Of a DNA stretch of 64,000 nucleotides, positions 44,858-61,961 are shown in pieces. Position 1 is the first letter of the stretch. Every line of letters begins with the position of its first letter. The notes under the pieces are model-generated. The model was not told the DNA's origin and did no database searches. It was given only the letters and a program-made list of their open reading frames with translations. This stretch comes from a virus, in IMG/VR virus record IMGVR_UViG_3300020185_003648, positions 1-64,000 of that record; one strand, given 5' to 3'. The position numbers and the translations under genes are program-made.

Positions 44858-46492
44858 TTACATCATTCCCGCCATTGGGTTTGGTGTCTCGTCATCATCT
44901 TCTTTCTTTTCAAAGATAACTGATTCTGTTGTTAAAATAGTTCCTGCGATTGATGCTGCATTCTCTATTGCTATTCTTGTAACTTTTTTAGGGTCAATAA
45001 TACCTGCTGCTTTGAAATCCATTACAGTTAAATCTTTATAATTTAATCCGTTCCATGTATTTTCATCTGCTAGCAAGTTAAATGAAGCATATGTAATATC
45101 ATTTGTTTCATGTCCAGCATTTGTTAAGATTTTGAAGAATGGTTCTTGAATTGCTTTACGTACAATTCTTCTACCTACAGAAATATCGTCTGTTCCATCT
45201 CTGCTAATTTTCTGTGCAGCGTAAAATAATGCTGTTCCACCACCGATTAGGATTCCTTCTTCTAATGCTGCTTTTGTAGCAAATAAAGCATCTTCTACTC
45301 TATCTTTTTTCTCTTTAATTTCGATTTCGCTATTTCCACCAACGTTGATGATTGCTACACCTCCAATTAGTTTACCTAATCTTTCTTGTAATTTTTCTTT
45401 TTCGAATGCTGATGTTGCGTTATCTAATTGGGATTTGATTTCACTAGCTTTTGCTGTAATAGCTTCTTCACCGCCTTTACCATCTACGATAGTAGTTTTG
45501 TCTTTAGTAACATTAACTGTTCTAGCTTTACCTAATAATTCACCGAATTGGATTGATTGTAGTTTATCTAGTTTATGTCCTTTGTTTTTAGAGATTACAG
45601 TACCACCTGTTACAGTAGCTAAATCTTCTAAAGCCATAGTTCTTCTATCACCAAAATCAGGGGCTTTAACAGCAACAACTTGAATAGTTCCTCTCATTTT
45701 GTTTACAATGAGGGTAGCTAATGCTTCTCCATCAATGTCTTCAGCTACAATAAGTAAAGGTTTACTTTCACCACTTGCTTTGTTTAATACATTAAGCAAT
45801 TCACTGGCTTGTGTAATTCTACCATCATAGATTAAAATGTAAGGGTCGTTTAAAACCGCTGCCATTGAATCGTTGTCTGTAACAAAATATGGTGATTTGT
45901 AACCACGTTCGAATTGCATACCTTCTACTACTTCAAGTGAAGTTTCTCCAGTTTTAGATTCTTCGATTGCTACAACTCCATCTCTACCTACTTTATCTAA
46001 AGCTGTTGAAATTAAGGTTCCAATCTCTTCATCGTTGTTACCTGAAATAGTAGCTACTTCCTTAATTTGTGAATCTTCTGTAATTTCAACAGATAGTTCT
46101 TTTAATGCTTCTTTTACAGTGTTTACTGCCTCGTCAATACCTTTCTTGATATCAACCGGATTAGAACCATCATTGATTTGTTTGATTCCTTCTTCAAGAA
46201 TAGCAGTGGCTAATACTGTAGAAGTTGTTGTACCATCACCTACCTCGTTAGCAGATTTTACAGATACTTTTTTAGCTAATTCTGCACCAATAGATTCAAC
46301 TTGATTTTCAAGTTCTTTAAATGCCTTTGCTACAGTAACACCATCTTTTGTAACTTTAATTTCACCATTAGGTTCTTTAATTAGTACTGTTCTACCAGCT
46401 GGCCCTAATGTTGATGCTACGCTATTATTGAGTTTCTTAACTCCTTCTAATAGTTGATTCTTGGATTCTTTTCCGAAACTTGTTTCTGTCAT
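44858..46492 (-). CDS. groEL: GroEL-type chaperonin (60 kDa)
   Basis: A 544-residue full-length group I chaperonin. NSVASTLGPAGRTVLIKEP near residue 24 and VGDGTTTSTVLATAIL near residue 85 are the ATP-binding elements. The apical and intermediate domains are intact (ALEEGILIGGGTALFYAA near residue 405), and the tail ends in GMM as in bacterial GroEL. It folds proteins in an ATP-driven double ring with GroES, encoded 3 bases upstream. A phage-encoded set could fold capsid or other phage proteins. No truncation is seen. Confidence 0.96.
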   Translation of the reverse strand: MTETSFGKESKNQLLEGVKKLNNSVASTLGPAGRTVLIKEPNGEIKVTKDGVTVAKAFKELENQVESIGAELAKKVSVKSANEVGDGTTTSTVLATAILEEGIKQINDGSNPVDIKKGIDEAVNTVKEALKELSVEITEDSQIKEVATISGNNDEEIGTLISTALDKVGRDGVVAIEESKTGETSLEVVEGMQFERGYKSPYFVTDNDSMAAVLNDPYILIYDGRITQASELLNVLNKASGESKPLLIVAEDIDGEALATLIVNKMRGTIQVVAVKAPDFGDRRTMALEDLATVTGGTVISKNKGHKLDKLQSIQFGELLGKARTVNVTKDKTTIVDGKGGEEAITAKASEIKSQLDNATSAFEKEKLQERLGKLIGGVAIINVGGNSEIEIKEKKDRVEDALFATKAALEEGILIGGGTALFYAAQKISRDGTDDISVGRRIVRKAIQEPFFKILTNAGHETNDITYASFNLLADENTWNGLNYKDLTVMDFKAAGIIDPKKVTRIAIENAASIAGTILTTESVIFEKKEDDDETPNPMAGMM

Positions 46493-46495
46493 AAC

Positions 46496-46786
46496 TTATT
46501 CTACTATTGATAAAATTGAATTTTGTGCTGTAATGTAATATTCTTCTCCGTCTAATGTAATAGTTTGAGAACCCATTTTTGGTAATAATACTTTCATACC
46601 TACTTCTAAATCTGTAGGAACTATTGTATCAGTATTAAAATTGTAAACATTAGAAATTGCTATTACTTCAGCCATTTCTGGTTTTTCTTTACCCATATCG
46701 GGGATAATGATGTTTCCAGCCATTAATTCTTCTTCCTCGATAGGACGTAATATAACGTTCCCATTAACTGGTCTTAATTTGTTCAT
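46496..46786 (-). CDS. groES: GroES-type co-chaperonin
   Basis: A 96-residue protein. LRPVNGNVILRPIEEEE at the start, a mobile-loop region with AGNIIIPDMGKEKPEMAEVIA, and GMKVLLPKMG match Cpn10. It caps GroEL. The mobile loop (EELMAGNIIIPD) keeps the hydrophobic triplet that binds GroEL. Overlaps the upstream 93-residue gene by four bases and precedes groEL by 3 bases. Confidence 0.92.
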   Translation of the reverse strand: MNKLRPVNGNVILRPIEEEELMAGNIIIPDMGKEKPEMAEVIAISNVYNFNTDTIVPTDLEVGMKVLLPKMGSQTITLDGEEYYITAQNSILSIVE

Positions 46787-47064
46787 CTTAAAATTGCTTC
46801 TTTTAAATTAGTATGAATTGTTTCAAAGTTTTTAGCATATTCCTTTAAGGTAAATACACCATCTTGATTTGTTTGATGTTTAGCTATTGCTAAAACTGCT
46901 GTTCCTAGATTAGTATAGAAACCAATAGTTTTTTCTTTTGTAGTATCTACTACATTGTAACTATATTCGTCTACAACGATTTTATAGTCGCCTAATAATA
47001 CATCCTCGATGAATGTACTCTTTCCAGACCCTTTTGGTCTGCCTTTAAAATTTGGATTTGCCAT
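46783..47064 (-). CDS. Hypothetical protein upstream of groES
   Basis: A 93-residue protein. GRPKGSGKSTFIEDVLLGDYK resembles a P-loop-like segment, but only one glycine-rich turn is present and no Walker B is seen, so ATPase activity is doubtful. The rest is helical. It is the first gene after composite element H and is translationally coupled to groES, so it may be a phage-specific chaperonin accessory. Confidence 0.6.
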   Translation of the reverse strand: MANPNFKGRPKGSGKSTFIEDVLLGDYKIVVDEYSYNVVDTTKEKTIGFYTNLGTAVLAIAKHQTNQDGVFTLKEYAKNFETIHTNLKEAILR

Positions 47065-47098
47065 AACTGATTGTGTGTTTGTTATTATTTCTTATATG

Positions 47099-47129
47099 TA
47101 AATATACGAACATTCGTTCGATAAACCAA
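47099..47129 (-). promoter_or_regulatory. Composite terminator/promoter element H
   Basis: TTG at 47129-47127, a 20-nt spacer, TATATTTA at 47106-47099 inside CGTATATTTAC. The spacer includes a short hairpin, CGAAC/GTTCG (47107-47120). It follows the Hsp20 gene and drives the chaperonin genes. A TCTAGAGCGAG sequence adjoining it (47131-47141) is repeated inverted upstream of Hsp20. Confidence 0.7.
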
Positions 47130-47130
47130 G

Positions 47131-47641
47131 TCTAGAGCGAGAAATATTTACTTGATTTGTAGAGTTTTTAACTCTGAACCTTTAGCGAAAGGTACACTAA
47201 TAGTCAATAATCCGTTTTCGAATTTTGCTATGGCTTTTGATAAATCGAATTTAGAATCGATTTTCCAACCAAAGTTAAAAGAACGTTTAGCAATACCCTT
47301 GTGGATATAGTCTACATCTTCTTCTTCTTTAGCTTTTGTGTAATTAATGCGAAGAACATTGTCTTGAAGTAAAATTTCAATGTCTTCTTTAGCGATACCA
47401 GTACAGGCAACATCAAAGATAAGTCCTTTGTCGTTTGTATAGATGTCTACTGGGTGGGATAATTTGGTTTGGTCTAGCGGTGAATATTGGCTAGCGTCTT
47501 GAAAGAAATTTCTAACTAAAATGTCGAACGGATTACGTTCATAAAATAATGTACTCATAATGATTTACGTTTGTGACGTCCTAAGATCGTCGGTTTAAAA
47601 ATTGATTTAATATAACATTTACATAACTAACTCGCTCTAGA
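47131..47641. repeat. 11-bp inverted repeat flanking the Hsp20 gene
   Basis: TCTAGAGCGAG at 47131-47141 and its exact reverse complement at 47631-47641 bracket the Hsp20 gene. The TCTAGA core is itself a palindrome and each copy lies next to a TTG. They may be operator-like sites or ends of an inserted segment. Only 11 bases match fully, so chance is possible. Confidence 0.5.
47148..47558 (-). CDS. Hsp20 small heat-shock protein
   Basis: A 136-residue alpha-crystallin-domain protein. FDVACTGIAKEDIEILLQDN begins the domain, and FENGLLTISVPFAKGSE is the conserved GxLxxxxP-like end motif. It binds unfolding proteins without ATP. It sits between the clamp gene and the GroES/GroEL unit, so folding functions are grouped. 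An upstream TATATTTA box (about 47653-47660) lacks a clear TTG at the usual spacing. Confidence 0.88.
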   Translation of the reverse strand: MSTLFYERNPFDILVRNFFQDASQYSPLDQTKLSHPVDIYTNDKGLIFDVACTGIAKEDIEILLQDNVLRINYTKAKEEEDVDYIHKGIAKRSFNFGWKIDSKFDLSKAIAKFENGLLTISVPFAKGSELKTLQIK

Positions 47642-47665: not shown

Positions 47666-48385
47666 CTATTGTAACCTTACCATAAAATATTTTGATAAAG
47701 TTGTATCTGTCTTAAATTCTAGTTTTGCTAATCCTTTATTACTTACACTCATTGTACCTTCCGCACCTTTATTTGATGATAATATTTCTCTAAATACTAA
47801 TGCTGAAAATGGTAGTATATCGCTTTGTTTTGTGAATGTAGCGGGTTCAGTGAATTTAACTTTATTAGCATGTGTTGAACGTTCACCTAACAACATTTCA
47901 ACAACATTTTCGTTTTGTGCTGTGGTAGTTGTATTGATAGTGAATTGAGGTGTTTTTTCTAAAGCGTTATGTGCTTTAGTAAAATTGGATATAAATTCGT
48001 CATTAATTTGAAATGTAAAATCGTAATCTGCTTCACCTACTTTCCTTACAGCTTGAATAATACTTATATCACTTAAATTATAATCTAAATCAAATTTATT
48101 ATCCTTAATTTTAAGTTTATTTACTAAACCGGTGTTTGATTTAGACAGTTCGAGTTGAACATCTTCATTTGTAATACTTAATAGTCTTAATAATGAATCT
48201 GTATTGTAAATACCTATTTCATTATCCTCTAATGCTAAATCAAATACTAAATTACCAATTGCATCTTTTGTTGAGGTTTCAAAGTTAATTTCTACTTTAC
48301 CATTCGATATAGTCCATATAACTTCACCTACTAATCCACCCAAAAAATATTTTTGGATATTGTCTATAATATAACTTTTTTTCAT
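47666..48385 (-). CDS. 45: Sliding clamp, gp45-like
   Basis: A 239-residue protein of the T4 gp45 clamp type. The two-domain beta pattern is visible: FDLALEDNEIGIYNTDSLLRLLSI near residues 50-70, NTDSLL being the family core. A second domain ends SNKGLAKLEFKTDTTLSKYFMVRLQ. It encircles DNA as a trimer and tethers the polymerase. It lies beside the C-terminal gp43 gene and the PMM gene. Confidence 0.85.
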   Translation of the reverse strand: MKKSYIIDNIQKYFLGGLVGEVIWTISNGKVEINFETSTKDAIGNLVFDLALEDNEIGIYNTDSLLRLLSITNEDVQLELSKSNTGLVNKLKIKDNKFDLDYNLSDISIIQAVRKVGEADYDFTFQINDEFISNFTKAHNALEKTPQFTINTTTTAQNENVVEMLLGERSTHANKVKFTEPATFTKQSDILPFSALVFREILSSNKGAEGTMSVSNKGLAKLEFKTDTTLSKYFMVRLQ

Positions 48386-49083
48386 GTTAATAAATGTAAT
48401 AATTTTTCAGTGTCTTTCCAACTCTTTACGTGATGAATTTTACAATCCTTCCGTTTTTGAGAAATAATTTGTTGTTGTATAGGAAAATCATTCCCCCCTG
48501 GTTGTAGTCTATCTCCAAAGAATATAAATTTGTCTTTTATATCTTTTACAATTTGTCCTTTGTCTTTACCTTTTTCATATATATCAATACTAATTTCTCC
48601 ACCTACTACAGCATCTAACCCTGGGTGTTTTTCTCTAATTTTACAAGCAAATTTCTTACGTTCTTGATGTTTTTTATCCCATGCTCCATAATGTTCTCTT
48701 TGCTCTTGGTTACAACTTCTACCTATAACAGAAAAATTAACAGCACCCTCTCGTTGTTCAATATGATTTCCATATCGGTAGGGATATTTAGATTTTTCTA
48801 AAAACCTTTTTAATAAATCTTCACATTGGGTTGGAAGATTAAACTCATGTTGGTATTCTAACTTATTATTAATAAAAAGTTGATTGCCTGAATTTTGGTA
48901 GCAACGTTCTACTGAACCCCATATATCAAAACCCAATTGTTCAATTGTTTTATCTTTATCACTGCCTGAAATTAACCATACACTATTTTTCTTAATAAAT
49001 GATTGAAAAAATGTTTTAAAACTGGGGTCAATTAACCCTCGGAAGGGAGTTAATGTTCCATCGACATCAAAAATATAAATCAT
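48382..49083 (-). CDS. Eukaryotic-type phosphomannomutase (HAD-IIB)
   Basis: A 233-residue protein with FDVDGTLTP (catalytic Asp pair), VNFSVIGRSCNQEQRE, KIREKHPG, and GGEISIDIYEKGKDK, then FFGDRLQPGGNDFPI. These match the PMM1/PMM2-type fold, including GGEIS and the FGD..PGGND metal loop, rather than bacterial ManB/PgmB enzymes. It should interconvert mannose-6-P and mannose-1-P, supplying GDP-mannose for gmd. It is coupled by ATGA to the gp43 C-terminal gene. Confidence 0.85.
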   Translation of the reverse strand: MIYIFDVDGTLTPFRGLIDPSFKTFFQSFIKKNSVWLISGSDKDKTIEQLGFDIWGSVERCYQNSGNQLFINNKLEYQHEFNLPTQCEDLLKRFLEKSKYPYRYGNHIEQREGAVNFSVIGRSCNQEQREHYGAWDKKHQERKKFACKIREKHPGLDAVVGGEISIDIYEKGKDKGQIVKDIKDKFIFFGDRLQPGGNDFPIQQQIISQKRKDCKIHHVKSWKDTEKLLHLLT

Positions 49084-50006
49084 GTAAAAAACTGGTTAAC
49101 GTAAGGGTTTGTATTTAACCTCCATTCTAAATCTTCGTAAAAACCTTCTAATTTATTTAATAATATTGTGTCAAATACTTTTTCTTTATCAGCAAATTTA
49201 TCTAAGAAATCTTTAATTTTATCAGGCATATCAAAATCAAGATAAGCTAACGCTTCAATTTGAAATGGGTTCTTTTTTAAGTAAATCCATTTTACTTTAT
49301 CACCTTGAACAATTTGACTATATGTCTTATCTAATTTCCAATATTTTAATAAATCATTATATTTAATTGTAGCACGTACTGCAGCAGGTGCTCCTTTACG
49401 GATTACTGTAAATATTTCTGTGCCTACTGGTTTACGTTCAATATATTTGTTTAGAGTTTTTACACCTTGTGGGTTTCCTAACTCATTAATTGGCATTGAA
49501 TGTAATATCTTTTGTTTGAAATCCAAAATTCTTGTATCGATTTCTCCTTGAGGTGTTCCTTTTAAAACATCTTCAAGTACATTTTTAAAGAAATTACCAA
49601 ACACTTTAGGAAAGTTAGATTTTTTATATTCTAATCCTTTTACATCAAGTGATTCTTTTACAATACCTTCTTGTTTTGTAATCCACTGAGCATATCTACG
49701 TGTTGCTCTAAAGTATGCTGAACGAATAACACATTCAGTTTTCATTTCGAGACGATGTGTACCTTGTATATTGAAGCAGTTGCGAGCTAAATTGTCGTAT
49801 TCTTCGTTTATAACATCTTGATATTTTAACGCAACCTTTTCTAGTATATCATCCTTTTCTTCTTCCGGGAATTCTTCAAAGTTAGGATATAAGTGTTTTA
49901 GAAGAGGTTCCGCATTAAAGTAGTTTGAATCCGTGTCAACGTAAGCACAGTAGTTTACGTCTTCTTCATCGCAAATAAACCAAGGTGTATCTTCTATGTG
50001 TTTCAT
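49080..50006 (-). CDS. 43: Family B DNA polymerase C-terminal part (gp43 split)
   Basis: A 308-residue protein containing polymerase motif C, YVDTDSNYF at residues 22-30, followed by TRRYAQWI (KKRYA-like, primer-DNA contact) and the thumb (residues ~130-308). It lacks exonuclease and motifs A and B, which are encoded at 55221-56984. The two lengths sum to 895, close to T4 gp43. The protein begins just before motif C and could fold with its partner as a split enzyme. Its start overlaps the upstream stop as TAATG. Confidence 0.9.
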   Translation of the reverse strand: MKHIEDTPWFICDEEDVNYCAYVDTDSNYFNAEPLLKHLYPNFEEFPEEEKDDILEKVALKYQDVINEEYDNLARNCFNIQGTHRLEMKTECVIRSAYFRATRRYAQWITKQEGIVKESLDVKGLEYKKSNFPKVFGNFFKNVLEDVLKGTPQGEIDTRILDFKQKILHSMPINELGNPQGVKTLNKYIERKPVGTEIFTVIRKGAPAAVRATIKYNDLLKYWKLDKTYSQIVQGDKVKWIYLKKNPFQIEALAYLDFDMPDKIKDFLDKFADKEKVFDTILLNKLEGFYEDLEWRLNTNPYVNQFFT

Positions 50007-50389
50007 TAATACTTTTTATATGACTTTTCTTCAACTAGTCCTGAATTTGTTAGCAAGTTGATTAATTTTTTAACCTCTGATCTTTGGTCATTGGTAATAT
50101 ACACAGAACGGGCTAATTCTACAAATTCTTTATCAAATCTATTTTCACGTTCACAATCTCGAATCCAATCCTCTATATCCCATAATTTGCCGTTTATTTT
50201 AGCTAATTCCAGATAATGGGTTTGTAATTCACTACCATATTGCTCAAACAATTCTACTACTAATGGGTTTAGTGTATTAAATTCGTTTTTGATGTTAACT
50301 AATTTTTCTTCATCTTCAATTCTAAGCATTTTTAACTCTAAAATTGAAATTTTATCTAATAGCTCCCCGTTTGATATTTCTACTTTCAT
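50006..50389 (-). CDS. DUF6165-like protein
   Basis: A 127-residue helical protein. VEISNGELLDKISILELKMLRI and LWDIEDWIRDCERENRFD match my memory of DUF6165, a family found with glycan genes. It lies between the polymerase C-terminal gene and an SDR gene and is coupled to both, so it belongs to the inserted sugar cassette. The function of the family is unknown. Confidence 0.65.
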   Translation of the reverse strand: MKVEISNGELLDKISILELKMLRIEDEEKLVNIKNEFNTLNPLVVELFEQYGSELQTHYLELAKINGKLWDIEDWIRDCERENRFDKEFVELARSVYITNDQRSEVKKLINLLTNSGLVEEKSYKKY

Positions 50390-51309
50390 GGTTTAAAATA
50401 ATTATATGTCTGTAATATACGATCTAGATCTTGCTTAGACACTAAAGAATACGCACTTGTAAATTCATGTGGAATTGGAGATTCTGATATGTTGTTATAA
50501 TGCATTACGTAAACTTTATCTTTTAAAGTAGTTCTAGGAACTTCTTCTTGGGCTATCATTACTTCATGTATTTTTTCAGAAATACGGGGTTGACCGTTTT
50601 TATATTGTAACCCAAACTTCTCAGAATATATTTCAAATAAATCTTTAACTAAAAATGATTTTAAATTAGGTATAATATTTACACCATCTAATTCTAAACC
50701 GATTTCAATTAAATCAATTGCTTCCTGTATCTCAATCATGAACCTAGTCATTTCTTCTGAGTATAGGGTAAGTGGATAGTTTTTATTAATAGAATCCCAT
50801 ATTAAGGGTATAATACTACCTGTAGAGTTTAAAACATTACCATATATGGCTGATGATAAATTTACTTGTGATTTTTCTGAGTTTACTATAAAGGATTCTC
50901 CTGCAATGAACTTCATAGAACCATATAGGGTAGTAGCAGCGCGAGATTTATCAGATGATATAAAACATGCAGCTTTAAAATTATTTTCTTCAGCTGCTCT
51001 TCGAGAATTAATAGAACCATCAATTAATACCCTAACTGCTTCTTCTACATTTTGATCTACAGATTCTATTTGCTTTAATGAGGCGGCAAATATACCAATT
51101 GTATGGTTTTTAGCAGATCTTATTAGTAAATCCGCATTACGTACATCTCCTATAATACAATTAATTTTAGGAAAACGTTTTTTAAGATAATAATGCTTTG
51201 CTTCATCTCTTGAATAAACAGTTATTTCATTATCACTATAATAACGTTCTACTAAATGGGATCCTAAATACCCGGCTCCTCCTGTTATAAAAATTTTTTC
51301 TCCTTTCAT
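50386..51309 (-). CDS. SDR polysaccharide-biosynthesis epimerase/dehydratase
   Basis: A 307-residue protein. IFITGGAGYLGSHLVE (NAD site), SRDEAKHYYLKKRFP, FAASLKQIESVD, ISSDKSRAATTLYGSMKFIAGE (catalytic region) recall the CapD/PseB-type family that acts on UDP-GlcNAc. A substrate is not certain. Part of the block inserted between the two polymerase genes. Confidence 0.75.
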   Translation of the reverse strand: MKGEKIFITGGAGYLGSHLVERYYSDNEITVYSRDEAKHYYLKKRFPKINCIIGDVRNADLLIRSAKNHTIGIFAASLKQIESVDQNVEEAVRVLIDGSINSRRAAEENNFKAACFISSDKSRAATTLYGSMKFIAGESFIVNSEKSQVNLSSAIYGNVLNSTGSIIPLIWDSINKNYPLTLYSEEMTRFMIEIQEAIDLIEIGLELDGVNIIPNLKSFLVKDLFEIYSEKFGLQYKNGQPRISEKIHEVMIAQEEVPRTTLKDKVYVMHYNNISESPIPHEFTSAYSLVSKQDLDRILQTYNYFKP

Positions 51310-52502
51310 ACTATTTTAAGATTTGGGAAAGGTATAACATATGGGATACCTAAATGTTTAGTTTTTTCAATGATCATATCCGAAAAATTCCATGCCAATA
51401 GTAGAATGTAATCTCCTTTTTCGTTTAAATCCTCTAAAGAAATTATAGGTATTTCTTGGTTAGCCATATACCTATTATAACGTTCAGGTGATTCGTCTAC
51501 TATATACTTTAGATCGTCTGTAGTTAATTTTAATTGATTAACTATCATATTAGCCCTACCTGAGGCTCCATACCCTATAATTGTTTTGTTTTTGTTTTCT
51601 TTAAAGAAATTAGATAAATTATTTAATGCTTCTTCTACTTTAGTACTAAAGGTATCTAAATTTAAATATTCCTTTTCGTTTTCTATTTGTAGATAAACGC
51701 TATTACTAATTTCATGTTCTTCACTTCTACCTATTATAACTCTAATTGATCCAGAATGAATTGGGATACGTTCGAAATCAATAATACTTAGACCATAAGG
51801 GCTTAACAAATTTTGTAGACTTGTTAAAGTGTAGTAATATAAATGTTCATGATATATAAAATCAAATTGGAATTTGTCTACTAAATCAATTAAGTATTGT
51901 ACTTCAACAATGAATTTACCATTTGGTTTTAAAGCATGTGTAACGCCTTTAACTACTGATTGTATGTCGCTTATGTGGGCAAATGAATTGCTTGATAAAA
52001 TATAATCGAATTTATTGGTTAAACTATATTTTTCTACATTTTCAGTATTAAAAAAATCGTCTATAATGTTTAATCCTTTATCCCTACCTAATTTTGTAAT
52101 ATTAGTTGCAGGGTCTATACCTGTAGCATTTATACCTTTTTCTTTTAAGGCTAATAGTAATGGACCATCATTACACCCAAATTCTAAAATTTCAATATCT
52201 TTATTTACTCCATTATTAACTAACCACTCAGAATATTGGTTAAAATGACGTTGCATTCCTACTGAGGAGATATATCTATAATCTTTGAATAATGTTTGTG
52301 GATCTATTAAATGATCGGTTTGTACTAAACTACATTTTTTACAAATTTGCCATTTTAAGGGATAGTCGGATCTAATGGTTTTTTCTTCTTCTGTTGGAAA
52401 GTATCCTGCTAATGGAACTATACCGAAATCATGAATGGTATGAAGTTCCGTAGATTCGCATGAGGCACATTTAGTACGTTGGGTATAATCTAAGTTAGTC
52501 AT
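51306..52502 (-). CDS. Zinc-ribbon C-methyltransferase, NDP-sugar type
   Basis: A 398-residue protein. CASCESTEL near residue 12 and CKKCSLVQTD near residue 53 form the N-terminal zinc-binding domain. ILEFGCNDGPLLLAL near residue 100 is the SAM motif I. IIGYGASGRANMIVNQL near residue 305 begins the C-terminal Rossmann-like domain of the methyltransf_13/14 family. It methylates a keto-deoxysugar carbon in related pathways. Fits the adjacent SDR. Confidence 0.82.
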   Translation of the reverse strand: MTNLDYTQRTKCASCESTELHTIHDFGIVPLAGYFPTEEEKTIRSDYPLKWQICKKCSLVQTDHLIDPQTLFKDYRYISSVGMQRHFNQYSEWLVNNGVNKDIEILEFGCNDGPLLLALKEKGINATGIDPATNITKLGRDKGLNIIDDFFNTENVEKYSLTNKFDYILSSNSFAHISDIQSVVKGVTHALKPNGKFIVEVQYLIDLVDKFQFDFIYHEHLYYYTLTSLQNLLSPYGLSIIDFERIPIHSGSIRVIIGRSEEHEISNSVYLQIENEKEYLNLDTFSTKVEEALNNLSNFFKENKNKTIIGYGASGRANMIVNQLKLTTDDLKYIVDESPERYNRYMANQEIPIISLEDLNEKGDYILLLAWNFSDMIIEKTKHLGIPYVIPFPNLKIV

Positions 52503-53526
52503 TTATAGTTTCGATTGCTGATATAGTGCTTAATCTAAGTAATTCTTTATCGATCTCCAAACCATTTATGGTAATTCTTAATCTGTCTTCTACATATTCA
52601 AATGTATTATTTATAAACTTACCAACATAATTTTCCATTTCGTTACTAGGTATTGGAACATATATTTGAAGGGTTCTGTCAGTAGTTTTTATATCTCTTA
52701 AAGGTATTGCTTTACCATCAATAAAAACTTCAACATCTAATTCTTTTTCTATGTCCCAAAAGAATAATACCGTTTTATTTGTTAATGTTTCTTCGCCTTG
52801 GTTATATATTTTTTCTTGGCCTAAAATCCATTTAAACCCATCTCCAGTATAATATTCTTCTACAAAACCTTTATCCCCCATACTAATTAAAGTTGTGGCT
52901 ATGGGTTGCCATTGGTCAGGTAAGATTAATTGGGTTTCATCTGAATTAAATTTATTAAATATATATCCCTCTGGGATTCTGCCGTGAGCTGTTTTTAAGT
53001 AATCTTGATAATTTATTTCTAATATATTATTAGCAAAATGAAGAGGTTTAATGGCTGCCCATGACATATGAGCCGACCTTTCACTTTGAGGTAAATCATA
53101 GTCTAATAATACACTTTTGTGATTCATTAAACCCTTTTCAGAAAGATAAACTAAATCATCCGTTACATTTAAATCATAATTTAAAACATATACCTTTTCA
53201 AATTCTAACATATTTGCAAAAAGTAACCCTCTTTTCCATTGTTGTACTGCAGCGTAACCATAGTCTACATACAAGGTACATAGTCTATAATTTTCAACCA
53301 TTTTCCAATGAAGTATAGAACCCTCATTTATGTCAATCATAGGATTACTATAATCGTATACAGAATAATTTGTTAAAAGATTTTCTTCTTCTGTAATTGG
53401 AAAATGAGAAAATAGTATAATTTCTTTATTATACCTTTTTAGAGAATTTAAAGTATTTAATAATACTTGTTTTTTCTCTTCTGTATTACAATAAGCGGTA
53501 ACTAAAAAACATTCTTTATTTTTCAT
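52495..53526 (-). CDS. Putative GT-A-like glycan protein
   Basis: A 343-residue protein. CFLVTAYCNTEEKKQVLL and EFEKVYVLNYDLNVTDDLVYLS near residue 110 resemble GT-A glycosyltransferases (a DxN/DxD-like acidic site), followed by a beta-rich C-terminal part. It probably acts with the neighbouring GT-PIG-L fusion. Family uncertain. Confidence 0.55.
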   Translation of the reverse strand: MKNKECFLVTAYCNTEEKKQVLLNTLNSLKRYNKEIILFSHFPITEEENLLTNYSVYDYSNPMIDINEGSILHWKMVENYRLCTLYVDYGYAAVQQWKRGLLFANMLEFEKVYVLNYDLNVTDDLVYLSEKGLMNHKSVLLDYDLPQSERSAHMSWAAIKPLHFANNILEINYQDYLKTAHGRIPEGYIFNKFNSDETQLILPDQWQPIATTLISMGDKGFVEEYYTGDGFKWILGQEKIYNQGEETLTNKTVLFFWDIEKELDVEVFIDGKAIPLRDIKTTDRTLQIYVPIPSNEMENYVGKFINNTFEYVEDRLRITINGLEIDKELLRLSTISAIETIND

Positions 53527-54958
53527 AACAAGCTATATAGGGGGTAGTATCTTTTTCTGAATCATATTTTTCTATAGATTCGTGTTCAATGTAGTTTGTA
53601 TTATCATCGTTGCTTTTAAACCAATCTCCGGATTTATTTAATAGTTGGACTATTATGTCACTTTCTGAGGAGTATAGGTTTAAGATATTTATTTTAGTTG
53701 TTAAAGTTTCTAAATCTAACCGTTTAGGGGATTTGCCAAATACGTAGAAATTTTTAGTTATACTTTTAACAGCTTCAAATATAGCTCTATGTTGAGGGTG
53801 ACCATATTCTCCTATGGGGTTGTGGGTGACTATTTTCTCCCATTTTCTATTAAGGATTATTGTTTTTAATTTTAGAATATCTAAATCATTAAATGAATAT
53901 AAATCATCTTTTAAATTCCACATTTCCCAAGACTTTACTTGTAATTCCTTCATTACTTTTGAAAATTCTTTTCTACGAATTTCATTTGAGGAATTAGTTA
54001 AGCATATCACTTTATAGTCTTGGGCATTATTTATAAGTTCCCCTCCCCCAAATATTAATTCGTCATCAGGGTGAGCTACTATCATTAATTTAGTACAAGT
54101 GTAATCATTAAAAGTGTTAGATAATACTTCATGGTCCTTTTTAATTACTGATGGATCAGGCCCATGTATAAAATATGGTTCTAGTGTACTTTCATCGTAC
54201 ATTACATCAAACCCTTTTTTTAAATAAATACTTTTTACTTTAGTTTCTTCAGGTGAACTATAGTAATTGTTCCATGTAATTGGAAGATATTTAGTTAAGT
54301 TTTCTTGCCATAAGATACAATTTGCTACCCTTTCCTCTGAGAAGGCATTATTATCTACAAATACCCTTAAACTTCTGTTACTCAGTTCAGAATACCATTC
54401 CATACACCTATCAAAAAACCATTTACTACGTTTATCATAGAAATAGAATCCCGTAGCAATAATTCTATTGTTTGGGTTACGGGTAATTTTTTTAATATAG
54501 GCTAATTCCATTCCATATCTCCCATCCAATTTAATCTGACCATGTAATTTCCATTGGGCCATATCTGGGTGATAATATCTCATAAAAAGAGGATATTCTG
54601 GGATTTCGGGCAGGTATTTTAAGGATTTGTCTATATTTTTAGTAACAAAAGCATCACCATCTATCCAAGCAAATTTTTCAAACTTTTCTTCTAATGAATA
54701 TAAACTTGCTATATATTTACCATAATATAAAGAATAATCTTTATTAATTAAATCAGGTTCATGGCTAAAGTAATGGGTGTTTTTAGGAGTAAAATTTACT
54801 CTTCTTTGAATTACATTTGGAAGATTAATATTAGGGTCACAATTAAATCCATATACTATAAGTTTATGCCTAGAATATTTAAGTAAACTCTTGGCAAGAA
54901 CTTTAACCATTTTCATGTAAGCCTCATCACCTCCTGTAATCCAGACAAATTTCTCCAT
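53516..54958 (-). CDS. Glycosyltransferase - PIG-L deacetylase fusion
   Basis: A 480-residue protein with two domains. The first ~270 residues are GT-A-like (KFAWIDGDAFVTKN near residue 92 is the DxD-containing strand; residue spacing like GT8/GT-A). The C-terminal ~180 are PIG-L: MIVAHPDDELIFGGGEL near residue 293 binds zinc with the later His in GEYGHPQHRAIFEAV. The enzyme could add an N-acetyl sugar and deacetylate it, which is inference from the fusion. Confidence 0.78.
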   Translation of the reverse strand: MEKFVWITGGDEAYMKMVKVLAKSLLKYSRHKLIVYGFNCDPNINLPNVIQRRVNFTPKNTHYFSHEPDLINKDYSLYYGKYIASLYSLEEKFEKFAWIDGDAFVTKNIDKSLKYLPEIPEYPLFMRYYHPDMAQWKLHGQIKLDGRYGMELAYIKKITRNPNNRIIATGFYFYDKRSKWFFDRCMEWYSELSNRSLRVFVDNNAFSEERVANCILWQENLTKYLPITWNNYYSSPEETKVKSIYLKKGFDVMYDESTLEPYFIHGPDPSVIKKDHEVLSNTFNDYTCTKLMIVAHPDDELIFGGGELINNAQDYKVICLTNSSNEIRRKEFSKVMKELQVKSWEMWNLKDDLYSFNDLDILKLKTIILNRKWEKIVTHNPIGEYGHPQHRAIFEAVKSITKNFYVFGKSPKRLDLETLTTKINILNLYSSESDIIVQLLNKSGDWFKSNDDNTNYIEHESIEKYDSEKDTTPYIACYEK

Positions 54959-55221
54959 TAAAATCTTGTACCGTCTCCGGGTAATTTAACTACACCTGCA
55001 TCAATTTCACCTTCACTGTTTAGTATACGCTCTCTTAATTTAATTTCAAAGTTTATTCCATCAAACTTAAATTTTCCTCCCTGTTGGAGCATTTTACGGA
55101 AAAATACTTCTCTTTTTTCACTCCAATCTTGGCTCATTTCTATGAGTTCTTCTTTTGTAGCGTGGTGATCGTTTACCATTACGTGAACTCCTTGTCTTAA
55201 TACTTGTTTTGTTAATGCCAT
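54958..55221 (-). CDS. Hypothetical protein after gp43 N-terminal gene
   Basis: An 87-residue protein. ATKEELIEMSQDWSEKREVFFRKML is helical and ERILNSEGEIDAGVVKLPGDG recalls short phage proteins. Its start overlaps the stop of the polymerase gene by one base, and its stop overlaps the fusion gene, so the sugar cassette may have been inserted after this gene. Function unknown. Confidence 0.65.
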   Translation of the reverse strand: MALTKQVLRQGVHVMVNDHHATKEELIEMSQDWSEKREVFFRKMLQQGGKFKFDGINFEIKLRERILNSEGEIDAGVVKLPGDGTRF

Positions 55222-56984
55222 TATAGTTCTATTTTAATTTCGTTTTTAATTACTTTATTCATATGTCTGTTAGCACATAGTGCTGATTCTTGTATAATTC
55301 TCCATCCTGACAATGTAATTGCTTCTGATAGTATTGACATAGGCATTCCATATCTAAATGAAGGTAATGCTGTTGCTCCATAAAGTGAGTTAAGTAGGAT
55401 TTTCATTGTGTACTGTAGTAAGTGGTTTTTTTCTCCACCCTCTGTATCGCCTGCTTTGTATGCTTTTTTCATTCTATTTTTATACAAAACACGTTCATCA
55501 AACCATTTGTTTAGGATAGTTGATAATACCGATTCTTTATCTGTTCTAAAAAAGCAACCATTTGCGGATACAGTCCATTTATTCTTTTCTATTAAAGCTA
55601 TAAGTTTTTCTACTGTAACTGTAGCTGCTTTTTCTCTATGATTTTTAATAATAAGTTCCCTTTCAGGGTCCATATTTTTTAAATCACTTAGTCCGAAATA
55701 ATTGTTACGGTCTGGTTTACCACTATATGGACCAAAATCTTGTAAGTTTTCGGGTAAATCTTCAGGTACAATCCTTCCCATAAAGGTTTCTTGTCCTATG
55801 TTTAGGGACATAATGATTGAAGGATATAAAGAAGTTAAATCCTCATCAAACATATATTTATACAAACCTGCTTTAGGACAAAATAAATAACCACCTGCAT
55901 AGTTAAGTTTTTTAGCACCCATAGGGCGATTTGGTGGAATTATTCCTTTTGAAAGTAGATATGCTGAAATAGCACCATCATGTATTTTAGAGGAGGCATA
56001 TACTTCGCTATAATTTACTTTACCTTTATGTGCTAAGTTTTTTGTTAAGGCTAGATATTGAAGTTTTTTATCTAGTTCAACTAAGATTTCAACATCGACA
56101 AAGTTATATTGAATAAACTTGTGAATGTCTTCTTCAAATAACCTATCAAGTGAACCCTCGTATTCGATTTTATTGATACCTACATATTTTTCTCCAATGG
56201 CATCTAGTTTCCAAGATGGTTCGTCTTCCCACCCATATTTTTTATGTAATCGCATGTAATCCAGCGATTGTAAGCCGATTATATCAACAAATTGGTCTGC
56301 TTTATACCAGTATTCGCCTTTAGATACTTTATCGTCTACTAGCCCAATAGGTGATAAACGCTTTGCTTCAGAATCACCTAAAACATTACACATTCTGTAA
56401 TATAGGTAAGGGATATCGAAGTAATCACTATTGTATCCTACTAAAATATCAGGGTTGATTTCCTCCATTTTGTTGAGAAACATATCAAGTAAATCTGCTT
56501 CATGTGAAACAGGTATAATCTCCTTATTTTTATTTTCTCCTGTTTTAGTATGTTTTAATTGTCCCTTTTTATCTAAGATAATAATAGACCAATGGTCTGC
56601 TTGTTTATCATACCAAGCAATTGAAGTTACAGGTTTAGGTGCAGATGCTATATATTCTTCTGTAAGTGCTCCTCCCATTTCAATCTCGATATCGAAAAAT
56701 ACTTCTCTGTGGGTAGTAGAAGGTTCATCGTTTATACCATAGGTTTCAATAAGGAACTTTTGGTGGGCTGATATATCATGGAAATGTAATCCCATGTCTC
56801 CTTTTTTAGCATCGTTGGTTCTAACTAGTTTTTCACCATTTAGACCTCTATAAGGGGCATCATCAGAATTTACTTCTCTATAGGAGTGGTTCTTCCATTT
56901 GATTTGGTGGTAACCTTCGTCGTCCCATAAATGAATGAGGTGTTTGTTTTGACCAGCACCTTGAGCATGAATTTTTTTATACAT
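55221..56984 (-). CDS. 43: Family B DNA polymerase N-terminal part (gp43 split)
   Basis: A 587-residue protein. The 3'-5' exonuclease carries ExoI (FFDIEIE, about residue 96), ExoII (VGYNSDYFD, about 180) and ExoIII (YNFVDVEILVELD, about 295). The polymerase half has motif A (DLTSLYPSI, about 385) and motif B (KILLNSLYGA, about 533), then ends in NKVIKNEIKIEL, before motif C. Motif C and the thumb lie at 49080-50006. It is not a partial record: a stop codon and a coupled gene follow. Confidence 0.92.
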   Translation of the reverse strand: MYKKIHAQGAGQNKHLIHLWDDEGYHQIKWKNHSYREVNSDDAPYRGLNGEKLVRTNDAKKGDMGLHFHDISAHQKFLIETYGINDEPSTTHREVFFDIEIEMGGALTEEYIASAPKPVTSIAWYDKQADHWSIIILDKKGQLKHTKTGENKNKEIIPVSHEADLLDMFLNKMEEINPDILVGYNSDYFDIPYLYYRMCNVLGDSEAKRLSPIGLVDDKVSKGEYWYKADQFVDIIGLQSLDYMRLHKKYGWEDEPSWKLDAIGEKYVGINKIEYEGSLDRLFEEDIHKFIQYNFVDVEILVELDKKLQYLALTKNLAHKGKVNYSEVYASSKIHDGAISAYLLSKGIIPPNRPMGAKKLNYAGGYLFCPKAGLYKYMFDEDLTSLYPSIIMSLNIGQETFMGRIVPEDLPENLQDFGPYSGKPDRNNYFGLSDLKNMDPERELIIKNHREKAATVTVEKLIALIEKNKWTVSANGCFFRTDKESVLSTILNKWFDERVLYKNRMKKAYKAGDTEGGEKNHLLQYTMKILLNSLYGATALPSFRYGMPMSILSEAITLSGWRIIQESALCANRHMNKVIKNEIKIEL

Positions 56985-57000
56985 AACCTTATTTTACTCT

Positions 57001-58314
57001 TTAGTATATTATTACGTCGTCATTGTCTTTACCTTTAGGCTTAGACCTTGGTTTGCGTTTATCAATATAATCACTTTCTTCCGCGAATCCAAGTTTTATT
57101 TCATCCCAATTTGCTATATCTGGGGAGTAATATGGAGCGTGGTTTTTTAAGTAATCGTCTATATGTTTAATTGAATCTACGATTTTAATAGCAGCACGAT
57201 CTAATTCATTAATTTCTTCGTTTGCTTTAGTTAGCTCACCATATAAGAATTCAATTTTATTATCTTGTTCTTCTATAATTTCCTTTTGAGATACTTTATC
57301 TTCGAGTTCATCTAACTCTTTTAGAAATTCTTTCGTTTCTGGTTTAACTACTTCAGGTTCAATTACCTCAATATCATTTTCAGGGTTGATGTCTGGAAGG
57401 TCATTTGGGTCGGCTTCAAGTTCTATTTCATCTAAACCATCCCATACATCGCTTTCTACTATTGACCAATTTTTTAAATCATCTTCTTCCTTCTTTGGTT
57501 TAATTTGATCAAAAGCAAAGTTAGCAGCTATTACAAGTGAAATTGCTAATGGGTCAAATACGAATATAATAACTAACAACAAATAGTTAATAATTTTATC
57601 CATTGGAATCCCGGTAAGTCCTGATAGATATTTAAGTGGTCCTAATTCGCCTGCTACTTCAGATGTATTTTCTAATTCAAGAATAGCAAGTTGATATTTT
57701 TGTAAACTATCAGCTGCTACTTCTCGTTTTGCTTGTACTGCTTTTCTATTTACTTCCTCAACCTCAATACGTTTTTGAGCCATTCTAAGCTCTGTTGTAG
57801 ATACAGTAGTACGGAAACCTGTCGTTGAGGTGGTATCTCGGACTTGTATTTGACTAGATTTCGCAGTTGATAAATTATTAATATTGGCTCCAATAATCTC
57901 AAGGTCTTTGTCATACCTTGCCAAATCCGATTCATAGAAATCTTTCTTTTGAGTTAAAAATTTTACTTTATTATCTACAACTGACATTTCGGATGCTGTT
58001 GCTTGGTAAGCAGCGGATAAAAAGCCATATATACCCATACTAGTAATGAACACCAATACTAGCGCAGCAATAGAAAGATATAATTTAAGCCACTTGTTTA
58101 TTGTGTCCCAATACTGATATAATAGTGAGGCAATCACAAGTTTAGCTACCTCCAAAGAGGTAGCCATTATAATAACTTCAAAAGATGCTCCCGCAAATAA
58201 TTTACTTAAACCACTAACTGAATAGAATGCTGCTGATGCAGATACTGACAAGGCAGCGAAAGCAATTATAAATGGAAATAGACCTTTTTTAACGGAATGT
58301 AGAAAGTTCTTCAT
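57001..58314 (-). CDS. Membrane protein with cytoplasmic coiled coil
   Basis: A 437-residue protein. Hydrophobic segments lie near residues 12-32, 42-62, 78-100 and 243-270, with a soluble coiled-coil stretch (about 120-220) between the third and fourth. FDPLAISLVIAANFAFD is the last segment. The C-terminal 165 residues are acidic and coiled-coil-like and end in a basic tail (RKPRSKPKGKD). This layout occurs in T4-like marine phages. It may anchor replication or assembly factors at the membrane. Confidence 0.7.
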   Translation of the reverse strand: MKNFLHSVKKGLFPFIIAFAALSVSASAAFYSVSGLSKLFAGASFEVIIMATSLEVAKLVIASLLYQYWDTINKWLKLYLSIAALVLVFITSMGIYGFLSAAYQATASEMSVVDNKVKFLTQKKDFYESDLARYDKDLEIIGANINNLSTAKSSQIQVRDTTSTTGFRTTVSTTELRMAQKRIEVEEVNRKAVQAKREVAADSLQKYQLAILELENTSEVAGELGPLKYLSGLTGIPMDKIINYLLLVIIFVFDPLAISLVIAANFAFDQIKPKKEEDDLKNWSIVESDVWDGLDEIELEADPNDLPDINPENDIEVIEPEVVKPETKEFLKELDELEDKVSQKEIIEEQDNKIEFLYGELTKANEEINELDRAAIKIVDSIKHIDDYLKNHAPYYSPDIANWDEIKLGFAEESDYIDKRKPRSKPKGKDNDDVIIY

Positions 58315-60326: not shown

Positions 60327-61022
60327 TTATATATTATGTCCTCCGTTATTAATTTTTAAACTATCAAAAAACTCTTTACGAGCATTATTAGTATCGTCTC
60401 TAAAGGCTCCTGATGCTTTAGTTGTTACCATTGCTGCTCCTTGATGTTTAACACCTCTACAGGATACACAATTATGTGTTCCTACGATTGTTACAATTAC
60501 ACCTAAGTTACCTTCTGTAATTTTTTCTACAGCATTATGAATGGCTGATGTTAATTGTTCTTGGATTGCTCCTCTTCTACCAAATAATTCTACAATACGA
60601 TTTAATTTAGATAAACCAATTACTTGACCATCTGCTCCGGCGATATATCCAATATGAACTACGCCTCCAATTGTTTGGTGGTGGTGCGAACACATCGAAG
60701 TTAACGGTATATTACGCTCGATAATTACACCATCATAACCATCACTAGGAAATGAAGTTATTTCGCTCATCGCCGTGTATCTACCTGCCCACAGGTCATT
60801 TACGTATGCTTTTGCTACACGTCTTGGTGTTTCCATTGAGTTTGGATCGTTTCTCCAATCACATTTAAGAGCATCTAAAAACTGACCGTAGGCAACTTCT
60901 GCTTCGTCTATCATTTTTAATTTTTCATTGTCTGTGAATGGGAAGCCTTCTGCTACCCCGTTTGCGAAACCGGTTTGTACAACCTCTAAATTTACGTGTT
61001 GTTTTCTTCTGTTATTTGCCAT
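60327..61022 (-). CDS. folE: GTP cyclohydrolase I
   Basis: A 231-residue protein. METPRRVAKAYVNDLWAGRY, LTSMCSHHHQTIGGVVHIGY and NCVSCRGVKHQGA give the zinc Cys-His-Cys set and catalytic His. It opens GTP to dihydroneopterin triphosphate, the first step to queuosine and folate. With QueE encoded next to it, the likely product is a 7-deazaguanine base. The ATG overlaps a 56-residue gene. Confidence 0.93.
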   Translation of the reverse strand: MANNRRKQHVNLEVVQTGFANGVAEGFPFTDNEKLKMIDEAEVAYGQFLDALKCDWRNDPNSMETPRRVAKAYVNDLWAGRYTAMSEITSFPSDGYDGVIIERNIPLTSMCSHHHQTIGGVVHIGYIAGADGQVIGLSKLNRIVELFGRRGAIQEQLTSAIHNAVEKITEGNLGVIVTIVGTHNCVSCRGVKHQGAAMVTTKASGAFRDDTNNARKEFFDSLKINNGGHNI

Positions 61023-61182
61023 ATATAAACTTTGTTGTTTGATCTTTACTTTGTATTGATATTCCCTCTAATGTAAGTGAAATTAATTCGAAATCCAAGT
61101 TTTCTAAATAAGAAATTATGTGATGGGGTTCAATTATTTTTTGAACCCACATCTCGTGAAGTACTTCTAACTTACTATTCAT
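61012..61182 (-). CDS. Small protein between queE and folE (56 aa)
   Basis: Reads MNSKLEVLHEMWVQKIIEP then helical residues ending FIYGK. It begins at a TAATG overlap with the queE stop and ends overlapping the first codons of folE by 11 bases, so it is translationally coupled to both. It could be a small partner of the 7-deazaguanine enzymes. No family recognised. An 8-bp inverted repeat (GGGTTCAA/TTGAACCC, 61124-61148) lies in its code. Confidence 0.65.
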   Translation of the reverse strand: MNSKLEVLHEMWVQKIIEPHHIISYLENLDFELISLTLEGISIQSKDQTTKFIYGK

Positions 61183-61961
61183 TATACCTCTCTTTGATCT
61201 TCAAAAGCTATAATGTGAGGTCTCCAAGTTAATCTGTAACCATTATCTCTCACCCAATCAAACATTAAAGGGTATGATTTAAATAAAGCTTCTCGTGAAT
61301 CTCCTGCAGGCATAAACCATACTTTATCTTTTGGTATTTCCATACCATTGATAAAATCTAAGATTTCGTTTAATGAACCTTGGTCTTTACCATCCCATAC
61401 TGGTTTAATATGGTAATCTGAGTGGTAGTTGATACTTAGCTTAATAGCTGCTAAGTTCATTCTAAGTTTGTTGTGTTGTTTTACCATTCTTTCGTCCGTG
61501 ATTCCACCTTGAGGGGTTTCAACGCCAATAACAGGGACTGAATTGCTGAACTTAGGAGAAATCGAGAGCAAATTGATAGGATAGTCAGTTTCAAGAAAAT
61601 GCGATCCTTCAGTTTCGATAGTGATAAAAATATTATTTTCATGTGCGAAGTGTGTTAATTCATTTACTAATTTACCATGCATTGTAGGTGAACCTCCTGT
61701 TAACATCATTTCTTTGATGTGAGGGTTTGCCTTATACATTTCGATAATATCGTTAAATGTAAATGAACCTTTTTCAGGATGGATACTAGTGTACCATGAA
61801 TCGCACCAACCACCTTCGCCGAAATAGCATCTGTGGGTGCAACCTGTTGTTCTAATTACTACTGTGGGGTATCCTGCTCGTGAACCTTCACTTTGGACAG
61901 CCGTGTAAATTTCTACAATAGGTAAAACCTTATTGTAGTCTTCAATTCTTCCTAAAGACAT
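61182..61961 (-). CDS. queE: 7-carboxy-7-deazaguanine synthase (QueE, radical SAM)
   Basis: A 259-residue radical SAM protein. IVEIYTAVQSEGSRAGYPTV, the cluster region CTHRCYFGEGGWCDSW near residue 41, MMLTGGSP and IETEGS are typical of QueE. The third Cys lies seven residues after the second, so the spacing reads CX3CX7C rather than CX3CX2C. It makes CDG from carboxy-tetrahydropterin. QueD and QueC are not in this window. Driven by composite element I. Confidence 0.88.
   Translation of the reverse strand: MSLGRIEDYNKVLPIVEIYTAVQSEGSRAGYPTVVIRTTGCTHRCYFGEGGWCDSWYTSIHPEKGSFTFNDIIEMYKANPHIKEMMLTGGSPTMHGKLVNELTHFAHENNIFITIETEGSHFLETDYPINLLSISPKFSNSVPVIGVETPQGGITDERMVKQHNKLRMNLAAIKLSINYHSDYHIKPVWDGKDQGSLNEILDFINGMEIPKDKVWFMPAGDSREALFKSYPLMFDWVRDNGYRLTWRPHIIAFEDQREV

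Follow-up and report, generated by a model that had tools for sequence, protein, structure and literature searches.

DNA polymerases of the T4 type that are split into two parts have been considered mainly in the context of homing endonucleases. The gp43A and gp43B of the Aeromonas phages 25, 44RR and Aes120 (Petrov, Ratnayaka and Karam 2010) are described in PMC2988022, according to which the two halves of phage 25 gp43 are reported to co-purify and to show activity. An earlier note on the DNA studied here had referred to split gp43 in some Aeromonas T4-like phages. The locus described in this work lies in a stretch of 64,000 nucleotides (the window) from the IMG/VR virus record IMGVR_UViG_3300020185_003648. 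Like the Aeromonas phages, it encodes a T4-type family B polymerase (PolB) in two genes and carries motif A and motif C on separate chains. The closest named intact relative is gp43 of Microcystis phage Mel-JY01 (33-34%), a single chain of 848 aa with a short loop before the DTDS motif, in contrast to the two-gene polymerase of the window. Judging from the sequence, it is highly probable that the two halves constitute a functional heterodimeric polymerase which goes back to one split and whose gene junction later served as a site for cargo.

Both halves are open reading frames with exactly the ends given to them in the earlier note (Table 1). The N-half matched the Pfam families DNA_pol_B_exo1 (6e-15) and DNA_pol_B (3e-19). 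On the gp43 profile phrog_262 of PHROG (856 positions), it occupies positions 22-569 (3e-107) and the C-half positions 565-851 (6.5e-50), resulting in a continuous coverage with no stretch of the profile missing between them. The match of the N-half ends at position 569 (query 582), which places the split at about 565-582, between motifs B and C. The summed length of 895 aa (587+308) compares with 882 aa for the intact polymerase of the sister lineage L224 and, together with the full coverage of phrog_262, agrees with the earlier estimate that the halves add up to about one gp43. RB69 gp43 was matched by the N-half in sequence (1.7e-46) and in fold (E 5e-26, TMq about 0.7). For the C-half, a sequence search of the PDB gave no meaningful match, its likeness to RB69 gp43 being one of fold only (E 8e-7, prob 1.00). 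Together, the two proteins exhibit exonuclease motifs I-III, polymerase motifs A, B and C, a KxRY-type motif and the gp43 profile, the features by which a T4-type family B DNA polymerase (gp43) is recognized.

Table 1. Genes from the N-terminal polymerase half to the sliding clamp, listed in their order along the minus strand
Feature	Length (aa)	Position	Strand	Domains, matches and remarks
N-half of gp43 (polN)	587	55221..56984	-	N-terminal domain, 3'-5' exonuclease, palm motif A, fingers with motif B
hyp87, small hypothetical	87	54958..55221	-	no Pfam/PHROG match
PIG-L deacetylase domain protein	480	53516..54958	-	domain at residues 291-400, Pfam PF02585 (3e-15)
Glycosyltransferase-like (GT-like) protein, assignment uncertain	343	52495..53526	-	69% homologue at the same place in L010
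Sugar C-methyltransferase (MT)		51306..52502	-	Methyltransf_13/23/14; PDB 4rv9, D-mycarose 3-C-methyltransferase (7e-60)
Nucleotide-sugar dehydratase/epimerase (SDR, Polysacc_synt_2)		50386..51309	-	Pfam 3e-40; PDB 4tqg, CapE-like
DUF6165 protein		50006..50389	-	Pfam 3e-15
C-half of gp43 (polC)	308	49080..50006	-	leader MKHIEDTPWFICD, motif C DTDS, RRYA motif, thumb
Phosphomannomutase-type (PMM) HAD phosphatase		48382..49083	-	Pfam PMM 1e-27; 4-bp overlap with C-half
gp45-like sliding clamp		47666..48385	-	last of coupled run; matching ORF at the same place in relatives; gene order and sequence

Among the aligned relatives, the exonuclease residues D98, E100, D187, D190 and D297, motif A (D382-S-L-Y) and the motif B residues K528, N532, Y535 and G536 of the N-half are invariant, as are motif C (D24-T-D-S) and R103-R-Y of the C-half. 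Pfam, PHROG and the residue alignment thus confirm the allocation proposed in the earlier note, with the exonuclease and motifs A and B on one half and DTDS, RRYA and the thumb on the other. For both halves, dN/dS was 0.02-0.16. The fragments might nevertheless be remnants of a degenerative split in a phage replicated by another polymerase, an idea left room by the incompleteness of the window record (65 kb). Its probability is small, since the catalytic residues are all invariant, dN/dS is far below 1, the halves are conserved clade-wide and three relatives of ~164 kb contain no other PolB match. A second PolB was not found in the 65-kb record either. A full-length gp43 elsewhere, named in the earlier note as an objection, was ruled out through the relatives only, because the record is incomplete. 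The natural two-subunit polymerase considered there appears to be the best reading of the sequences in view of the invariant residues, the low dN/dS, the clade-wide split and the lack of any other PolB match in these genomes.

The leader of the C-half, MKHxEDTPWxICD, is nearly invariant across the split clade and absent from intact Mel-JY01-type and T4-type enzymes. When the C-half was modelled alone, most of the thumb was obtained with confidence. Low confidence was seen at residues 1-18 and 20-27 (leader and motif C) and at residues 91-126 (RRYA region), which is consistent with these parts needing the partner chain; the shallow alignment (28 rows) may be partly responsible. In family B polymerases, the sites of motif A and motif C are both needed for polymerisation. 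Since these motifs reside on different chains, polymerisation requires that the halves come together. In the heterodimer, the N-half would supply the exonuclease, motif A and the fingers, the C-half motif C, the RRYA motif and the thumb. With the metal-binding aspartates divided between the chains (D382 versus D24/D26), neither half would polymerise alone. The leader probably acts as an interface latch.

The stop codon of the N-half and the start codon of the C-half are separated by 5,214 bp. From polN through gp45, which is called gp45-like from its gene order and sequence rather than from a family search, each gene overlaps the next by 1-11 bp, as expected from the earlier remark that each half has its own start, stop and coupled neighbours. 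Due to these overlaps throughout the run, a single message very probably serves for the translation of both halves, and co-transcription of the coupled genes would provide both subunits. A sigma-70 promoter scan gave 60 sites, no more than the 67 in shuffled sequence; terminator-like sites numbered 8 versus 5.2 +/- 2.3. The list of intervening genes in the earlier note stood as regards the PIG-L, methyltransferase, SDR and DUF6165 genes. By contrast, its glycosyltransferase assignments are less secure than put there: the N-terminal part of the 480-aa PIG-L protein had no Pfam or PDB match and the 343-aa protein no Pfam or PHROG match, and because of these missing family matches the label reflects appearance only. 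The SDR resembles CapE/UDP-GlcNAc dehydratases. The DUF6165 gene is located between the halves in the window, L064, L068 and L226, and downstream of polC in L003, L005-L007, L009 and L010. hyp87 is found between the polymerase halves in many relatives and elsewhere in others; it seems to be a wandering small gene, located upstream of queE in L029, L033, L039, L051, L072, L074 and L225.

The window stems from a metagenomic contig, and an assembly error had been mentioned in the earlier note as a possible refutation. However, the independent contig L010 has the order polN - hyp87 - PIG-L - GT-like - MT - SDR - polC, so that its halves flank the same cassette; at this junction, L068, L064 and L226 carry other genes, and the boundary genes all overlap. 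As L010 repeats the gene order, an assembly or binning error that joined unrelated pieces is very unlikely, its chance being close to nil. The PIG-L/GT-like/MT/SDR cassette occurs at the junction only in the window and L010 (2/81 loci), the proteins being 69-85% identical. The earlier note had called a split separated by sugar genes unusual; genes between polymerase halves are not unique, as demonstrated by Acinetobacter phage vB_AbaM_DLP1 (see below). In the other marine phages L240-L246, a PIG-L protein 61-63% identical to that of the window and its GT-like neighbour adjoin a probable tail sheath gene, and the pair therefore looks like travelling cargo. The position of the cassette inside a coupled run with polymerase and clamp genes might also reflect a functional tie to the polymerase, e.g. 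co-regulation of a DNA modification with replication. This is improbable given that the cassette is present at just 2/81 loci, that the PIG-L/GT-like pair adjoins a tail gene elsewhere and that its SDR and methyltransferase resemble capsule and deoxysugar enzymes.

A scan of viral contigs yielded 80 loci with C-halves 66-84% identical. These loci, the window and five loci from bacterial metagenome-assembled genomes (MAGs) provided 81 readable junctions; many are near-copies, and thinning left 33 rows (30 at 92% identity plus three MAG loci). The inspection of relatives proposed in the earlier note gave a uniform result, as two genes were present at 81/81 junctions (33 after thinning), with separate stop and start codons for the halves in all relatives. 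The genes overlap by 4 bp (ATGA) at 44 junctions and by 1 bp at 4, are separated by a gap of 9-43 bp at 3 and harbor an insert of 0.2-5.9 kb at the remaining 30. On the tree, the state 'interrupted or adjacent' changed at least 5 times, 4 of the changes being forced by well-supported branches, and hence inserts entered or left the junction repeatedly. The idea that the cassette caused the split was rejected, since the split is clade-wide and the halves are mostly adjacent in relatives. In L054 (8220-10001), L056 and L229, the N-halves possess about 25-35 extra C-terminal residues, apparently an absorbed insert. The wider module (queE, folE, polymerase halves, gp45, hsp20, groES, groEL, gp44) is kept across the clade; GroEL, GroES and Hsp20 genes (window 44858-47558) lie inside the replication module throughout.

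Inteins or split inteins occur in this region of relatives, at DTDS in L131 and twice in the uncultured huge phage LR756508, and the halves might accordingly be rejoined into one chain by a split intein, an intron or ribosomal frameshifting. The chance of this is slim: no Hint/intein domain was detected by Pfam in either half of the window, Rfam gave no intron match in 48800-57200 at a threshold as loose as E<=1, the halves are separated by as much as 5.9 kb of genes, each half has its own stop and start codons in every relative and the C-half leader is absent from intact enzymes.

The origin of the two genes can be traced with L224. The split clade is monophyletic (100/100; SH-aLRT 99 in a second tree) and L224 is its sister at 100, L224 being a single record from a mixed MAG and the split clade having a long stem branch. 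The L224 polymerase is intact, 57% and 49% identical to the N- and C-half, respectively, and located in the same neighbourhood as in the split clade (queE-folE-up180-pol-gp45-h93-groES-groEL-gp44). Its loop at the split position is enlarged to KTAEETLQTGKDVYEIRTTPRQRYEDCTGVVVYEDTDS and clearly longer than in T4 or Mel-JY01. About 70 Mel-JY01-type relatives are intact, and the ones included in the alignment have a short loop. Due to the enlarged loop of the intact L224 polymerase and the shared neighbourhood, an order of loop growth, one split and later uptake of cargo is suggested; loop growth, a frame change with ATGA overlap and then cargo is the simplest course. A single split would have taken place after divergence from the L224 lineage, in the already enlarged surface loop before motif C, the splitting event being the frame change that created the ATGA stop/start overlap. 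Once separate, the genes would have tolerated the junction as a landing site in which hyp87 and DUF6165 genes settled and, in the window and L010, the sugar-modification cassette.

In LR756508 and in the group of L196 and L210, the polymerase is likewise broken in the loop before motif C, apparently independently, and this loop therefore looks like a recurrent break point. A common origin of the LR756508 split with that of the clade is disfavoured by the trees and by the intact L224, and a scan for close relatives with the LR756508 C-half found nothing. It is conceivable, though still doubtful, that this loop is a recurrent break point yielding a stable, genetically free two-subunit replicase with a standing cargo site, the N-half perhaps also acting as a lone editing or regulatory subunit.

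The other lineage split in this loop comprises L196 (5333-8900), L210 (1-2700), L236, L237 and L238, of which L236 is the same contig as L196, while L210, L237 and L238 are near-copies in the compared stretch. Here, an N-half with a 45-aa tail is followed by an endonuclease-like ORF and the C-half, whose motif C is broken by 5 nt (GAC ACC [TAACT] GAT TCG). The exact DTDS motif would be regained by hopping from ACC over UAA to ACU, comparable to the bypassing in T4 gene 60. A 12-bp hairpin is located just upstream of the interruption, and L196 and L210 do not differ in about 100 nt around it, compared with an identity of about 90% in the flanks. Recoding of this motif C is a guess, the alternative being a dead gene. 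As judged by eye, the N-halves of LR756508 and L196/L210 end in similar tails. In L131 (7267-11350), a PolB is broken exactly at DTDS by a split intein, and between the intein halves there is an endonuclease-like ORF that, by eye, is apparently related to that of L196. LR756508 (L082, 12001-22710) has, besides its split polymerase, an apparent further intein in the gp44 clamp loader gene.

The bins of the MAGs and the similarity of GroEL, whose nearest counterparts among phage records belong to Flavobacterium and Bacteroides phages, weakly suggest marine Flavobacteria as hosts. Flavobacterium phage immuto, nearest by GroEL, was rejected as a close polymerase relative, as it has a family A polymerase. 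FolE-like and QueE-like genes adjoin the module (window 60327-61961) and, by analogy with the annotation of immuto, suggest a 7-deazaguanine DNA modification.

A large group of marine phages shares this split as a fixed trait, at a new site and with the catalytic carboxylates on different chains. The intact sister with its enlarged loop is a likely intermediate, so that the route leading from a single gene to two subunits can be tested directly. It also appears that the junction of a core replication gene can turn into a cargo site. In practical terms, annotation would label such halves as truncated. In the open-access literature, nothing was found on such a split for marine or flavobacterial phages. 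In the Aeromonas polymerases, the split falls between motifs A and B, at about 490-497 of phrog_262 (Aes120/DLP1 boundary 489-497), and the gap contains a homing endonuclease or untranslated DNA, while the gap described here contains metabolic cargo and no endonuclease match. DLP1 (Lazarusvirus) resembles the window in that unrelated ORFs, here small ones spanning about 2 kb, lie between its two polymerase genes, but it is an independent lineage and has the Aeromonas split site (about 495/497). Rhodothermus phage RM378 is also T4-like with PolB in two genes; however, its polymerase is cut between exonuclease and palm (p024 exonuclease only, p092 polymerase only) and the genes are about 57 kb apart. 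LR756508 is split in the same loop before motif C, its C-half also has a leader (MKTKKIK...), and it shows the same order of polymerase, clamp and clamp loader. By contrast, its N-half has a 45-aa tail, and inteins are present at motifs B and C. It groups with the intact Mel-JY01-type enzymes (99/96), so its split is apparently independent. L131 has a split intein at DTDS, whereas the window halves have no intein match. Thus, a split T4-type gp43 is as such known, while the locus described here differs in split site and in the content of the gap from the Aeromonas phages and DLP1, from RM378 and from L131.
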